This document shows, one piece after another, positions 2,980 to 64,000 of a stretch of DNA of 64,000 nucleotides (its first letter is position 1; every line of letters starts with the position of its first letter). Under the pieces are notes generated by a model, which worked only from the letters and a program-made list of their open reading frames with translations, was not told the origin of the DNA and did not search any database. The DNA is taken from NCBI GenBank assembly GCA_035308025.1, contig DATGHL010000012.1:62001-126000 (forward strand), given 5' to 3'. The translations under genes and the position numbers were made by a program. The DNA is from Candidatus Binataceae bacterium (GTDB lineage Bacteria; Desulfobacterota; Binatia; Binatales; Binataceae).

Positions 2980-3506
2980 GCGATACGCGGCCCGCCGCCG
3001 CCCAGCGGCTCAGGCTCGTCGGCATAGTTATCGCCGCCCGCATGAACCATGATCGCGCGACCCTGAACATCCTTGAGCAGCAGGCGCGGCGCGAGCACCG
3101 GCGTCGTCGCCTTGCCATCGGCGTTTACCACCAGCGGCGGCAGGTCGCCGGCATGCCCATTGCCATAGGGCCCCTTATGATGCCTGGTCGCGGCGGGATC
3201 GAGATGCCCCCCAGCGGCGAAGCCGGCGGCCATTTTGCCGTCATGATCGGCCGGCCCGCACGCAGGTTTTTCGTGGATATGGAAGCCGTGCACGCCGGCG
3301 GGCAAACCGGAAAGATTCGGCGTGACGAGCAGGCCCCACTTGCTGTCGGCGAAGGTGACAGAGCCGATCGCCGGCCCGACGCCCGCGGCGCTAATCGAGT
3401 TGACGGTCACCGTAACCGGCGGCGCGGCATGAGCCGCCGACATCATCGCGATTATCGCAGTCATCGCGATAGACAATGATGCAATCAGCGGGAGCCTTGA
3501 GATCAT
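2961..3506 (-). CDS. sodC: Cu/Zn superoxide dismutase (periplasmic)
   Basis: SodC dismutates superoxide to oxygen and hydrogen peroxide, normally in the periplasm. With the ATG at 3506 the protein has 181 residues, starting with a signal peptide (MISRLPLIASLSIAM to AAHAAP). Metal ligands are visible: HGFHIHEKPAC (copper histidines and the disulphide cysteine), GGHLDP (bridging histidine), HKGPYGNGHAGDLP (zinc ligands), MVHAGGDNY (last copper histidine), and GGPRIACGVI with the substrate-guiding arginine and second cysteine. The frame extends 20 codons further upstream, but that part overlaps leuD and would bury the signal peptide. It begins 7 bases after leuD stops, so it is probably co-transcribed with the leucine genes, with no obvious functional link. 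Confidence 0.93.
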   Translation of the reverse strand: MISRLPLIASLSIAMTAIIAMMSAAHAAPPVTVTVNSISAAGVGPAIGSVTFADSKWGLLVTPNLSGLPAGVHGFHIHEKPACGPADHDGKMAAGFAAGGHLDPAATRHHKGPYGNGHAGDLPPLVVNADGKATTPVLAPRLLLKDVQGRAIMVHAGGDNYADEPEPLGGGGPRIACGVIP

Positions 3507-7423: not shown

Positions 7424-8830
7424 TTACTGCTCCGGCGCGATCATCTTCTCCGCCACCACGTAACGATCGAACTCCTCGGGCTTAAGCAGATTCAGCGCCA
7501 GACAGGCCGCCCTCAGGGTCGTGCCCTCATGATGGGCCTTCTTGGCGACCTTGGCCGCATTATCGTAACCGATATGCGGACTTAGCGCCGTCACCAGCAT
7601 CAGCGAGTTCGCGACGTAGTCCGCGATCCGTTCGCGATTCACCTCGAGTCCCTCGACGCAATGTTCCGCAAAGAGCCCGCAGGCGTCGCTCAGCAGCCGG
7701 ATCGAATGCAGCAGATTATGGATAATCACCGGCTTGAAGACGTTCAGCTCGAAATTCCCCTGCGAGCCGGCGAAACCGATCGCCGCGTCATTGCCCATCA
7801 CCTGCACGCAGACCATGGTCATCGCCTCCGACTGGGTCGGATTTACCTTGCCGGGCATGATCGAGGAGCCCGGCTCATTCTCAGGCAGTACGAGTTCGCC
7901 CAGGCCGCAGCGCGGTCCCGAGCCCATCCAGCGCAGGTCGTTCGCAAGCTTCATCAGCGCGCAGGCCAGCGCCTTGAGCATCCCGCTGGCCGCCACCAAT
8001 GCGTCATGCCCGGCCAGCGCTGCGAATTTGTTCGGCGCCGAGGTGAACTTGAGCCCGGTCAATTGCGCGATCCGCGCGGCGCAGCGCTCAGCGAACTCCG
8101 GATGGGTATTCAGGCCCGTGCCGACGGCGGTGCCGCCGATCGCCAGCTCCATTACCTCCGGCAGTAGCGCTTCGATCCGCTTGATACCGTACTCAAGTTG
8201 CGCAATATAGCCCGAGAACTCCTGCCCGAAGGTCAGGGGCACCGCATCCATCAGATGGGTCCTGCCGATCTTGACGATATCCGCGATCTCCGTCTGCTTG
8301 CGCCTGAGCGCCTCGATTAAGCCCTTGACCGCCGGGACCAGCCGATGGGTCAGTTCTTCGGCCGCCGCCACATGCATCGCGGTGGGAAACGTGTCGTTCG
8401 AGGATTGCGACATATTGACGTGATCGTTCGGATGGATCGGCTGTTTGCTGCCGAGCTCGCCGCCCGCCAGCGCGATCGCGCGATTCGAGATCACCTCGTT
8501 CGCATTCATGTTGGTCTGCGTGCCGCTGCCGGTCTGCCAGATGCGCAGCGGAAACTCGGCGTCGAGCCGGCCGGCAATCACTTCGTCCGCTGCCTGCACG
8601 ATCAAATCCGCCAGCTTCGGCGCCAGCTTGTTGAAATCGCGATTGACCTCGGCTGCGGCCCGCTTCAGGATGCCGAAGGCCCGGATCATCGCGCGCGGCA
8701 TCACGTCCTGCGCAATCGCGAAATGGATTAGCGAGCGCTCGGTCTGCGCGCCCCAGTAATGCTCGGCCGGCACTTCGATCTTGCCCATGCTGTCGCTCTC
8801 AACCCGAACCCGTTTAGCGCCTTCCGCCAT
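7424..8830 (-). CDS. fumC: Class II fumarate hydratase
   Basis: FumC hydrates fumarate to L-malate in the TCA cycle; it is iron-free and oxygen-stable. The 468-residue protein shows the superfamily signature [17 protein letters not shown] (about 327-343), containing the catalytic serine loop, plus [15 protein letters not shown] (about 102-116), [20 protein letters not shown] (about 137-156) with the conserved substrate-binding residues, and [24 protein letters not shown] site lies before the ATG at 8830. It points away from the ferredoxin gene at 9090, leaving a 259-base divergent spacer in which I see no convincing promoter motif. Confidence 0.96.
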
Positions 8831-44254: not shown

Positions 44255-45745
44255 GTGAAGCAATCCCATCTGATCGCCAAGAATATTCTGGCGAGCGGTG
44301 GCGCCACGGCAGTCGCGGGCCTGCTCCAGCTCGCCATCATCATTATCGTAGCGCGCAACGTTTCGGTCGCCGATTTCGGCGCCTACTCGTTCATGCTCGC
44401 CTTTTGCTTTGTGATTTTCCGGATCGCTGACGGCGGCCTGAGCATCATCCTCACGCGCGACCTTGCTATCGAACCGGCAAAGATCCAGGAGGTCTTGGGC
44501 GCGACCCTCGGACTCGCCTGGGTGATGAGCTTCGGGGCAACGCTGCTGATGGCCGCGGTCATCCCGTTTTTTCACTTCAGCCGCGAGCTCTCGATACTGG
44601 TCGCTCTGATGGGCGTCGAGGGGCTGGGGCAGTTTATCTGCGGATGCTGGGGCGCGGTGATGCGCTCGCAGGAGGATTACGAGAATAACGCCCTGGGCTT
44701 CGTCATGCACAAGATGGTGGCGCTGGCGGTGGTGAGCGCGGCGATGATGCTGCATTACGGGCTACCGGGCGTGGTGGCCGGGCACCTGACGGGATCGCTG
44801 GTGCAATGGTGGTTTTATCGGTGGAAGGTGACCCGCGATTACGGCCGCCCGCGGATGCGCCTTGATTTTGCGGCGTGGAAATATCTGATTCGCGAGTCGA
44901 TTCCGGTCGGCGCCGCCAACGCGGTGCGGATCTTCGCCGATCAAGCCGACATCATCGTCCTCACGCTGCTGGCTGGGGCGACCGCGGTCGGGCTGTTCAG
45001 CGGACCTTTCAAAATCGCGACCGGTTTGCGCTTTCTGCCACAGGCGCTGGTTTTGCCCCTGATTCCCTTGTACTCGCGCTCAGCGGTGGGCGCCGGCGAG
45101 CGCCCAGCATTTCGCGAGGCCTACGAACGCAGTGTCAAAACCTTCGCGCTGATGGGCTTTCCGTTCGCGGTACTGTTTGCGCTCTGCCCGGGGGTCCTTA
45201 CGGTCGGACTGCTGGGTGCGAGCTATCGCGCCGCCGCCCCGGCGATGCGCCTGCTGAGCGTCGGCCTCTGGCTGGCCTTCCTGACCACGCCGTTTCCGTT
45301 TCTGCTGACCGCACTCGGCCGCCAGCGTTTCCTGTTTGTCACTTCGACGGCCGCGCTGGTCGTGCGTGTCGCGCTGGACTTGATTCTGGTGCGGTACTTC
45401 AACTTTCTGGGGCCGTGTATCGCACTGATGGTTTCCGAGTCGCTGGTGCTGGCGGCGTGGATCGGCGGCGTCTGGGAAGCCGGCTTTGCGCTGAATTCGG
45501 TCGCAATTATCTGGCCCCCGTGCGTCGCCAGCGTGGCGATGGGCGCATTCTTATATTTGCTCCATCCGCAGTCGTTGTTAGCGCTGGCGCCGCTGGCGCT
45601 GGCGGGCGGTACAATCTATATGTTCATTGTGATCAGGCTGGGCGGCGTTTCCCCCACCGAGATGGGGCTGCTGCGCGAGAGCGCCGACTTCATCCGGCCG
45701 TGGCTGGCGCAGCGCCTCGGCCAGCTTCGCGGCAAAGCGTTATAA
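44255..45745 (+). CDS. Wzx-like polysaccharide flippase (MOP superfamily)
   Basis: The 496-residue protein is very hydrophobic with 12-14 membrane helices. It begins with the Wzx/RfbX pattern: LIAKNILASGGATAVAGLLQ, then LAIIIIVARNVSVADFGAYS, the VADFGxYS motif being typical of polysaccharide biosynthesis flippases (PF01943/PF13440). IPVGAANAVRIFADQADIIV and LTLLAGATAVGLFSGPFKIA mark the second lobe. Such proteins move undecaprenyl-linked sugar units across the membrane. No sugar-nucleotide or Wzy gene lies beside it, so its substrate is open. It starts at a GTG 48 bases after the TolC-like gene and converges on tatD. Confidence 0.85.
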   Translation: MKQSHLIAKNILASGGATAVAGLLQLAIIIIVARNVSVADFGAYSFMLAFCFVIFRIADGGLSIILTRDLAIEPAKIQEVLGATLGLAWVMSFGATLLMAAVIPFFHFSRELSILVALMGVEGLGQFICGCWGAVMRSQEDYENNALGFVMHKMVALAVVSAAMMLHYGLPGVVAGHLTGSLVQWWFYRWKVTRDYGRPRMRLDFAAWKYLIRESIPVGAANAVRIFADQADIIVLTLLAGATAVGLFSGPFKIATGLRFLPQALVLPLIPLYSRSAVGAGERPAFREAYERSVKTFALMGFPFAVLFALCPGVLTVGLLGASYRAAAPAMRLLSVGLWLAFLTTPFPFLLTALGRQRFLFVTSTAALVVRVALDLILVRYFNFLGPCIALMVSESLVLAAWIGGVWEAGFALNSVAIIWPPCVASVAMGAFLYLLHPQSLLALAPLALAGGTIYMFIVIRLGGVSPTEMGLLRESADFIRPWLAQRLGQLRGKAL

Positions 45746-61421: not shown

Positions 61422-61775
61422 ATGGAAGGCGATGGCAGGCGGCCCGAACGGGTCGCCGAGATGGTGCATCGAGAAGTGGCCCTGATGCTGTTGCGGGACT
61501 TGCGCGATCCGCGCCTGCGCGGGATCAGCCTGACCCGCGTGCGCATGACCGACGATCTGCGGCGCGGCCGGATCTTTTTCTCGCATCTCGGGGGCCGGGT
61601 TCGCGCCGCTGACGCGATTAAGGGCTTTCAGAGCGCCAGCGGTTTTATCCGCCGCCAGCTTGGCCGCGCGCTCAGCCTGCGCTATACGCCGGATTTCGCT
61701 TTCGAGTTTGATCCGGGTCTCGAAAGCGCCGCCCGCGTCGACACCCTACTGCGCGAAGCCCGCCCGAAGGAATAG
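61422..61775 (+). CDS. rbfA: Ribosome-binding factor A
   Basis: RbfA aids 16S rRNA maturation in the 30S subunit. The 117-residue protein has RPERVAEMVHREVALMLLRD, LRDPRLRGISLTRVRMTDDL, KGFQSASGFIRRQLGRALSL, and the C-terminal RYTPDFAFEFDPGLESAARV then DTLLREARPKE. The conserved LRYTPDLxFxxD motif is present. A diverged copy of its last 114 bases, shortened by 12, is found at 63207-63308. The genes normally following (truB, rpsO, pnp) do not appear before the window ends. Confidence 0.95.
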   Translation: MEGDGRRPERVAEMVHREVALMLLRDLRDPRLRGISLTRVRMTDDLRRGRIFFSHLGGRVRAADAIKGFQSASGFIRRQLGRALSLRYTPDFAFEFDPGLESAARVDTLLREARPKE

Positions 61776-61813
61776 TCCTGGCGAAATCAGCGAGCTGCAC
61801 CGAGCCTTTCTTT

Positions 61814-62833
61814 TTAAATAGCATTGATGATCTGGCTGACTTGTGTAAGCTCCATATTCAGTCCATGCCCGTCCACACCCAACGCGTCGGCCAGTGTCTT
61901 GAAGCGCCAACGCCAATCGAGGCGCTCCAGCGATCTTTTGTAGTTGAGCCGGGCGCGACCTGGCGTCCATTCGCGAACCGCGGGAGCAAGTACGTCGAGC
62001 CCTTCAGTGCGATTGACTGTCCCAAGATCGAGTTGGGCCTCCGGCCACAAAAGTGACTGCACTGGCGCGCTACGTGGCGGGACTCCGGCGATAGTGGCGC
62101 CCGCCGCGAGCGCATCGGTCCAGCGCGCGGTGATGTATTCGCGCTCGGGGTGGGTTTGAACGCTGGGGCTGACCCGGTTCGAAAAGGCCAATGTGAATTT
62201 GGTTCGACTCAAAATCTCCATTAAAGAGCGCTGGTTGTCCGTCGCATTACTGAGAATTGGCGGACGGCCCTGAAAGCTCAGATTGCGCGACTGGCAGAGC
62301 AGCATGCTTGACGGATCGTCCTCCCATTCTGATGGCTGGCGTCCAATTCGCAAAAGATCGAGAGCGCGCACCCCATTACATGAACCCAGACGCAATACGT
62401 CAGAGCCCCAAGGCAGCCAATCTACTGGTGCAGGTACGGCCTCGCGCCAGCTTTTCAGATCCTCCTGTTCGGTCACGAATACATGGTCAAATATCCGTGC
62501 CAGGCGCGCGAAGCGGGGGATGCGGCTTGACCAGAATGAGTCAAATGCCCAGGCGACTATCCGGCCGTATCTTTTCCGCCAATTTTCGAGCAGCAATATC
62601 GAAGCAAGATTTGCAGGATCGGGGCAGATGAGCAGGCAAGCTGCTCCCCGTCGCTTGCGCGGCAGTAAGCTACCCAACTGTTGAGTCTTCGTGGCAGTCC
62701 TGGAGCGAACCACGACTAATTTTCCATTGAGCAGTTCGGCGGCGAGCCGCGCCATATAGTTAACCGCGGTGTATCCAGGAGATCCGGGATCGGTATAAAC
62801 AATTTCAATTGGAGTTTCGATAAAAATCTCCAT
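61814..62833 (-). CDS. Glycosyltransferase-like protein (CgeB-like, GT-B)
   Basis: The 339-residue protein resembles CgeB-type glycosyltransferase proteins (PF13524). Features: IEIVYTDPGSPGYTAVNYMA at the start; FDHVFVTEQEDLKSWREAVP with VDWLPWGSDVLRLGS in the middle, the typical FVTxxxxLxxW...WLPxG domain junction; and TDNQRSLMEILSRTKFTLAF followed by YITARWTDALAAGATIAGVP, matching the donor-site region where family members have RxFExxAxGA. Here ARWTDALAAGA replaces it. No neighbour shares a pathway. GC content is lower and less regular than in the nusA operon, consistent with recent acquisition. It lies opposite to rbfA, between rbfA and its duplicated fragment. Confidence 0.7.
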   Translation of the reverse strand: MEIFIETPIEIVYTDPGSPGYTAVNYMARLAAELLNGKLVVVRSRTATKTQQLGSLLPRKRRGAACLLICPDPANLASILLLENWRKRYGRIVAWAFDSFWSSRIPRFARLARIFDHVFVTEQEDLKSWREAVPAPVDWLPWGSDVLRLGSCNGVRALDLLRIGRQPSEWEDDPSSMLLCQSRNLSFQGRPPILSNATDNQRSLMEILSRTKFTLAFSNRVSPSVQTHPEREYITARWTDALAAGATIAGVPPRSAPVQSLLWPEAQLDLGTVNRTEGLDVLAPAVREWTPGRARLNYKRSLERLDWRWRFKTLADALGVDGHGLNMELTQVSQIINAI

Positions 62834-63206
62834 TCATGCTACACACTGAACTTATCGGTATGTAACTGGTAGTAGACGTTTATGTACTGACAGCGCTCAC
62901 GCTCCGCAGCTATGAGATTTACCCGCGCTGGCGGGACCGTCGCTTGAGCTTCCTACGCTTAGCGCAACAGAAACGGCTTGATCTGCTTTTTTGTATCCGC
63001 GAGACGGGTCAAGAAAAGCGAGCAACGGGTCGCGCTTAAATCTTTCCGAATTCGCTCGAATAGCCTAATAAGCCGCCGCGGCATGAGCAAGTGTACTCGT
63101 TCAGTACATGGTGAATTATTTGGAATTTGGCGCGTCATGGCGGACATTCGCGCGCGAATGACTCTTAAAAACCGCGAAGCTTAAATTGCGCGGCGGTGCA
63201 GCGGAT
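62834..63206. other. Gene-free AT-richer segment before the rbfA fragment
   Basis: I see no supported gene here. Two overlapping short frames (62959-63147 minus, 62978-63184 plus) have no recognisable content. The base composition is clearly more AT-rich than the rest of the window. It could be decayed mobile DNA. Confidence 0.5.
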
Positions 63207-63308
63207 GGTCGCGTGCTCAGCCTGCGCTATACCTCGGAGTTCGATTTCGAGTTTGATCCGGGCCTCGAAAGCGACGTCCGGCGGCGCGAAGCCCGCCCCA
63301 AGGAATAG
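63207..63308 (+). pseudogene. Diverged fragment of rbfA 3' end
   Basis: These 102 bases match the last 114 bases of rbfA (61662-61775) at about 88 percent over the aligned first 72, with a 12-base in-frame deletion, and identical ends (GCGCGAAGCCCGCCC, AAGGAATAG). The frame is kept: LSLRYTSEFDFEFDPGLESD then VRRREARPKE and stop, against LSLRYTPDFAFEFDPGLESA in the intact gene. No start or upstream part of rbfA precedes it. A short stem-loop CCTCGA-AAA-TCGAGG (63315-63329) follows. Confidence 0.85.
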
Positions 63309-63360
63309 CTCTCGCCTCGAAAATCGAGGCCCGAACCTTATTAGGGGAATCTTCCCCCAA

Positions 63361-63388
63361 TTGACACCACACCCGTAATCTGTTAAAT
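63361..63388 (+). promoter_or_regulatory. Probable transposase promoter
   Basis: TTGACA (63361-63366) and TTAAAT (63383-63388) are 16 bases apart and end 8 bases before the transposase ATG. Just upstream is a palindrome GGGGAATCTTCCCC (63344-63357), which may lie at or near the left end of the insertion sequence. Confidence 0.6.
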
Positions 63389-63396
63389 TCCAATGC

Positions 63397-64000
63397 ATGA
63401 CGCTCAAAGAACATCTGGAACAGTTCCCAGACGAAGAAGCCTGCAAGCGCTATCTGGTAGCCAAGCGCTGGCCGGACGGCGTGCGCTGTCCGAAGTGCGG
63501 TAGCGAGAAGGTCTTTCACGTCACGCACCGCCCGTTCCATTGGGTTTGCAAGCAGCGCGATTGTGGCGGGCGGAACGGGTATCGCTTCTCCGTTATCAGT
63601 GGGACCATTTTTCAGGATACTAAACGCCCTCTGAAAGAGTGGTTCACTGTCGCTTTCCTGATTCTGAACGCAAAGAAGGGGATCAGTTCCCTGAACGTTC
63701 AGCGCATCATGGGTTTCAAGAAAGAAAAGACCGCGTGGTATATGTGCCATCGGATTCGCGCCGCGATGAAGGATAACGACTTCGCGAAATTGATGGGCAT
63801 TGTCGAAATCGATGAGTCGTTCATCGGCGGAAAAGATAAGAATCGCCACTGGAACAAAAGAACGCATATAACGGGTGGACTCGGTTCGGGTAAGGTTGGC
63901 GTCATCGGAGCAATCAGCCGTAAAGGCAACGTGGTCTGCCAGATAATCGATAACACCGATGCAGCTACGCTCAATCGCTTCGTTCGTAAGACGGTCAGCG
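63397..64000 (+). CDS. IS1595-family transposase (partial, 3' end outside window)
   Basis: The frame starts at an ATG at 63397 and is still open at the last base, giving 201 residues. It has the IS1595 (ISXO2-like) layout: an N-terminal helical part MTLKEHLEQFPDEEACKRYL, a zinc ribbon with CPKCGSEKVF and CKQRDCGG (about 29-60), FQDTKRPLKEWFTVAFLILN, and the first DDE catalytic aspartate region VEIDESFIGGKDKNRHWNKR (about 147-166), then GKVGVIGAISRKGNVV. The family uses a DD(E/N)-type nuclease and has short terminal inverted repeats. The missing 3' part prevents judging whether it is intact. Codon use is less GC-biased than in the housekeeping genes. Confidence 0.9.
   Translation, partial: MTLKEHLEQFPDEEACKRYLVAKRWPDGVRCPKCGSEKVFHVTHRPFHWVCKQRDCGGRNGYRFSVISGTIFQDTKRPLKEWFTVAFLILNAKKGISSLNVQRIMGFKKEKTAWYMCHRIRAAMKDNDFAKLMGIVEIDESFIGGKDKNRHWNKRTHITGGLGSGKVGVIGAISRKGNVVCQIIDNTDAATLNRFVRKTVS

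Follow-up and report, generated by a model that had tools for sequence, protein, structure and literature searches.

Why does the 3′ end of rbfA occur a second time, about 1.4 kb downstream of an intact rbfA gene, in the genome of a Candidatus Binataceae bacterium? The window, meaning the whole stretch of 64,000 nucleotides that was analyzed, covers positions 62001-126000 of C12, a 202-kb contig in an assembly of 57 contigs. This genome is referred to as G000, and its nearest relative, a congener, as G001. An earlier note on this DNA had offered, as one explanation of the arrangement, an element that inserted into the 3′ end of rbfA, brought its own replacement end and left the old end displaced. 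The coordinates of all features are collected in Table 1.

The duplicated rbfA end

The RbfA protein encoded by the intact gene shares 54-81% amino acid identity with RbfA of relatives from the same family. Similarity to relatives is as high in the 3′ third of the gene as in its 5′ part, with, for example, 76% and 79% identity to G001, respectively. Alignment confirms that a second 3′ end lies downstream, in frame and with the same stop codon; both copies terminate in AAG GAA TAG. The divergence of about 12 percent with a 12-base deletion that had been reported is likewise reproduced: 89 of 101 aligned bases are identical, and the fragment contains one in-frame gap of 12 bases. The longest exact block common to both copies measures 18 nt. 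Chance cannot account for this similarity (BLAST E 5e-19 when searched within the window, profile E 1.3e-16), and the window contains no other direct repeat of 40 nt or more at a spacing of 250-3500 nt. In a whole-genome search of 96 genomes with the RbfA protein, the fragment is the only second rbfA match. The repeat closes at the rbfA stop codon, as the core of an att site would; it is 102 bases long and diverged. Weak similarity of the stretches that follow the two stop codons is suggestive of a duplicated unit extending about 30 nt further, to an end within 61776-61808.

Table 1 Features of the rbfA locus and of the corresponding loci in two relatives (window positions unless a locus is given)
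Feature	Position	Strand	Evidence
Intact rbfA, 117 aa	61422-61775	+	Pfam PF02033 (RBFA) E 1.1e-26
rbfA 3′ end, intact copy (last 114 bases)	61662-61775	+	alignment with 63207-63308
Stretch past the rbfA stop, weakly similar to 63309-63339	61776-61808	+	local alignment score 19, shuffle p 0.008
Single foreign cargo gene, 339 aa, weakly glycosyltransferase-like	61814-62833	-	PF13524 E 0.023, below cut-off
Low-GC spacer upstream of cargo gene, ~370 bp	62834-63205	.	GC about 49-56%, no recognizable content
Displaced and decaying copy of the rbfA 3′ end, 102 bases	63207-63308	+	alignment, profile, BLAST, tree
IS1595-family element, left end	63344-64000, on to C12:127525 (~window 65525)	+	inverted repeats
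Left terminal inverted repeat GGGGAATCTTCCCCCAATTGACACCAC	63344-63370		30-nt perfect inverted match, C12:125342-125371 vs 127496-127525
IS1595 transposase gene, 295 aa	63397-64000, continues past the window	+	PF12762 E 3.3e-37, PF12760 E 9.3e-12, NF033547 E 3.6e-60
Displaced rbfA end in G026	L051 (G026:C28:48000-58500) 7943-8005 and 8609-8671
Displaced truB end in G032	L048 (G032:C32) 2597-2669 and 3422-3494

Polarity of the two copies

A tree of rbfA 3′ ends was calculated from the rbfA genes of 29 relatives together with both copies. Herein, the two copies group as sisters (97% support), and the branch leading to the fragment (0.12) is longer than that leading to the intact copy (0.05). Both share lineage-specific states, i.e. 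an AGC serine codon, a CTC leucine codon and the residues Glu-Ala-Arg-Pro-Lys-Glu, in a combination that the relatives do not have. At sites that can be polarized, the fragment has accumulated about eight changes, compared with two in the intact copy. Had a replacement end come in, the fragment should resemble the species-typical sequence more than the intact end does; distances and tree reveal the opposite. The earlier model is thus not supported in this respect, the copies being sisters, the intact end native-like and the fragment the more diverged of the two. In addition, almost no relative carries a fragment, so that both observations named beforehand as counting against that model were largely made.

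On this evidence, the fragment is an unconstrained relic, namely, a decaying copy of this lineage's own rbfA end. In G001, truB begins 53 nt past rbfA, and this junction is empty, with no fragment; the fragment postdates the split from G001.

The segment between the copies

One reverse-oriented gene lies between the copies, as previously described. Its designation as glycosyltransferase-like does not stand equally firm, since it derives only from a match to PF13524 that scores 15 bits against a cut-off of 25. The protein has no match in PDB, NCBIfam or PHROGs, and a structure predicted from the single sequence is unusable (pLDDT 32). It is 39.6% identical over 98% of its length to a protein from an exopolysaccharide cluster on a Jannaschia plasmid, which is the only candidate relative that a search for a donor in relatives, a phylum sample, plasmids, phages and viral contigs returned. 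Neither 91 relatives nor 394 genomes from the phylum contain a homologue (a few genomes belong to both sets; ~480 in total), and hence the cargo gene is an acquired one. In the same genomes and in plasmids, phages and viral contigs, no donor with an rbfA end linked to this cargo was found. Viral contigs and phages likewise lack any relative of rbfA or of the cargo gene.

The GC content drops from ~63% to 49-56% toward the right of the segment, over the upstream half of the cargo gene and the spacer. ORFs of the spacer have no Pfam match, and its DNA has no match in relatives. The reported lack of an integrase between the copies holds: ORF and Pfam scans of 61776-63343 detect no recombinase. 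A tRNA or Rfam feature is not present at the junction.

The IS1595 element and the right side

An IS1595-family element, overlooked in the earlier note, begins at about 63344, only 35 bases past the fragment. It is bounded by perfect inverted repeats of 27-30 nt and amounts to ~2.2 kb including a second ORF. This passenger ORF of 370 aa (L003 4054-5166) matches no Pfam, NCBIfam or PHROGs family. Other IS1595 copies in the genome are only 72-74% similar. For the IS1595 family, an 8-bp target duplication is expected; the flanks of this copy (CCTTATTA versus TATAGAGG) show none, which points to a later rearrangement here.

The genes truB-rpsO-pnp, whose presence beyond the right edge of the window the earlier note had raised as a question, do not follow there. 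Instead, an enoyl-CoA hydratase gene is found past the element together with a block that relatives hold elsewhere and without that gene. The linkage of rbfA to truB is lost, with truB located on contig C16 behind a luciferase-family gene. Because of the IS1595 element, the unrelated block after it and the position of truB on another contig, the rbfA-truB junction can be said to have been both inserted into and rearranged. The luciferase-family gene also directly precedes truB in another relative (G033:C17, L045, compared with G000:C16, L036), the two genes being 80% identical; in G033 it is situated between rbfA and truB, whereas in G000 truB and this gene are unlinked from rbfA.

Recurrence in relatives and genome-wide scan

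A similar arrangement is found in G026, a genome from a different genus within the family. There, a 63-nt rbfA end recurs 666 nt downstream with 58 of 63 positions identical (92%) and consists of the last 52 nt of rbfA plus 11 nt beyond. The order is rbfA, a single reverse-oriented small gene, the displaced rbfA end, the native spacer and truB. The inserted ORF is small and resembles a secreted protein (MYKLRAG...), and the intact rbfA coding end is identical to that of the sister genome G015. The displaced end of G026, which goes with a different single-gene insert, is independent of the case in the window.

In G032, truB and a displaced 73-nt truB end flank a relative of the small G026 gene (71% amino acid identity). 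The inserts of G026 and G032 can be aligned over ~600 nt, are about 80% alike and share the right end GGCGCTGAAC, which directly precedes the duplicated gene end in each. The G032 truB is moreover oriented opposite to rbfA and rpsO-pnp and adjoins a PIN-domain-like pair resembling a toxin-antitoxin system. These two cases, at rbfA in G026 and at truB in G032, lend support to the broader idea of an insertion that displaces an old gene end. Taken as a whole, the earlier interpretation is partly supported.

Elsewhere in the genome, ~850 kb were scanned, and no further displaced gene ends were detected; the other direct repeats are paralogues or intergenic repeats and not gene ends. Among them is a 43-nt intergenic repeat (C17:44829-44871 and 45488-45530, 95% identity, 659 bases apart). 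A 46-nt direct repeat of 91% identity (L089 7644-7689 and 9349-9394; C12:143644 and 145349) brackets a P450 and a ferredoxin gene; this pair lies near an apparent tRNA gene and could be a small acquired island. Further direct repeats in relatives represent a duplicated cupin domain (L059), IS remnants (L047) and a dispersed intergenic repeat (L041). The latter, ~110 nt in length and with a hairpin, flanks rbfA in G021 (L041 8714-8826 and 9674-9782), and similar hairpin-bearing spacers occur before truB, in either orientation, in genus g15.

The rbfA-truB junction is interrupted or broken in at least nine relatives in which both genes were located. This suggests, at the level of gene order and for relatives viewed around rbfA only, that the boundary is a frequent insertion site and that displaced 3′ ends are one outcome. 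Any comparison of the genome-wide scan with the relatives is biased by this restriction to the surroundings of rbfA. No paper describing integration at rbfA was retrieved in a literature search.

Origin of the displaced rbfA end

The explanation that we favor, at about an even chance of being correct, is that the displaced rbfA end is the scar of a homology-anchored illegitimate recombination that brought a foreign segment behind rbfA. Incoming DNA carrying an rbfA end and the cargo would have paired with the resident rbfA on one side and would have been joined without homology on the other. The product would be a complete rbfA, followed by the cargo and by the old 3′ end, now shifted by 1.4 kb. 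Selection would keep the complete gene, and the displaced copy would drift. Afterward, IS1595 and at least one further rearrangement would have replaced the downstream DNA, leaving truB elsewhere. The sister copies, the decay of the fragment, the foreign cargo, the lost linkage to truB and the recurrence in G026 and G032 are observed here, and it is the route of recombination and the order of events that we infer.

That the rbfA 3′ end was simply duplicated locally is possible, though this reading is given clearly less credit. The duplication could have arisen by fill-in of a staggered break or as a small tandem duplication, with the foreign gene and then IS1595 inserting later, or it could have formed while the insert was captured. 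As the copies are sisters, no foreign rbfA end is necessary; the ~30 nt that they may share past the stop codon fit as well, and a duplication preceding the cargo insertion is compatible with the data. This reading requires, however, that the insert landed independently and precisely between the copies, or that a break with overhangs of 50-110 nt was repaired, and the recurrence with an insert in both G026 and G032 suggests that duplication and insertion were one event. A local duplication during capture of the insert fits nearly as well as illegitimate recombination. Site-specific integration, in which an integrase element targeted the rbfA 3′ end, supplied a replacement end and was subsequently stripped of its integrase and the larger part of its body, is unlikely. 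It would yield the anatomy of intact end, cargo and displaced end, and rbfA was struck independently in G026. Yet the intact end does not look foreign, the copy typical of the species is not the fragment, neither an integrase nor a viral or phage relative is found, the intact coding end of G026 equals that of its sister G015, and the related insert of G032 sits at truB, unlike what a gene-specific integrase would produce. Thus, the absent recombinase, the native intact end and the related inserts at two genes make an integrase the less likely agent.

Proximity might implicate the IS1595 element itself, whose left end is separated from the fragment by 35 nt and whose missing target duplication indicates involvement in a rearrangement here; flanking DNA would have been picked up or copied during transposition or by recombination between IS copies. 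The fragment lies outside the inverted repeats, however, and the patterns in G026 and G032 have no IS1595 at the junction, which makes such an origin very improbable. An assembly artefact, i.e. a contig that misjoins two strains or genome regions, is the least credible reading and hardly to be expected. The assembly is fragmented, and truB is on a different contig, but no uninterrupted match between the two copies exceeds 18 bases, too few to mislead an assembler, and with IS1595 copies elsewhere only 72-74% similar there is no near-identical IS copy in the genome. The pattern also recurs in two independent assemblies, those of G026 and G032.

The fragment is a real but ordinary evolutionary scar, its recurrence in relatives is modestly interesting, and it gives no sign of a working mobile element. 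That an undescribed process in this family inserts single-gene units behind housekeeping genes, duplicating 50-110 bases of the end of the target, with the rbfA-truB boundary as a hot spot, seems improbable to us. If it were true, this process would have generated both the G026 insert, flanked by duplicated rbfA ends, and the G032 insert, flanked by duplicated truB ends. The locus illustrates how a single foreign gene can become part of an essential ribosome-assembly operon, leaving the operon unbroken and a readable scar behind. Three scars at one operon boundary, compared with none elsewhere in ~850 kb of G000, allow tests of whether certain operon ends are favored for landing and through which mechanism.

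Comparison with known systems

The neighboring element resembles IS1595 elements with a passenger gene in its zinc-ribbon and DDE transposase, inverted repeats of 27-30 nt, length of ~2.2 kb and second ORF. Unlike a typical IS1595, it has no target duplication here, and it is a neighbor of the fragment and not its carrier. Some integrative elements target and restore the 3′ ends of conserved genes, such as tRNA genes, icd and similar. With these, the rbfA locus has in common a complete gene, cargo and a displaced copy of the gene end; it differs by having no integrase, no foreign-looking end and a single cargo gene, and by the inserts of relatives at two genes.

In the effector-immunity arrays of the Vibrio cholerae T6SS and in the orphan 3′ regions of Rhs genes, 3′ ends are shifted behind inserted modules, which is attributed to homology-facilitated illegitimate recombination (PMC5361080). 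The hallmarks of such a scar, i.e. a complete gene, a nonhomologous insert and a displaced old end, are present at rbfA. As in the Vibrio loci, a segment is joined at a conserved anchor, the gene is complete, and the older 3′ end lies downstream with foreign sequence between. In the Vibrio system, the new and old ends differ strongly, as toxin domains are swapped under selection (PMC5361080), whereas the rbfA ends are nearly identical, the gene is a housekeeping gene and the cargo is unrelated. By analogy with the Vibrio T6SS loci (PMC5361080), both the outcome and the probable mechanism of the rbfA scar would already be known from elsewhere.
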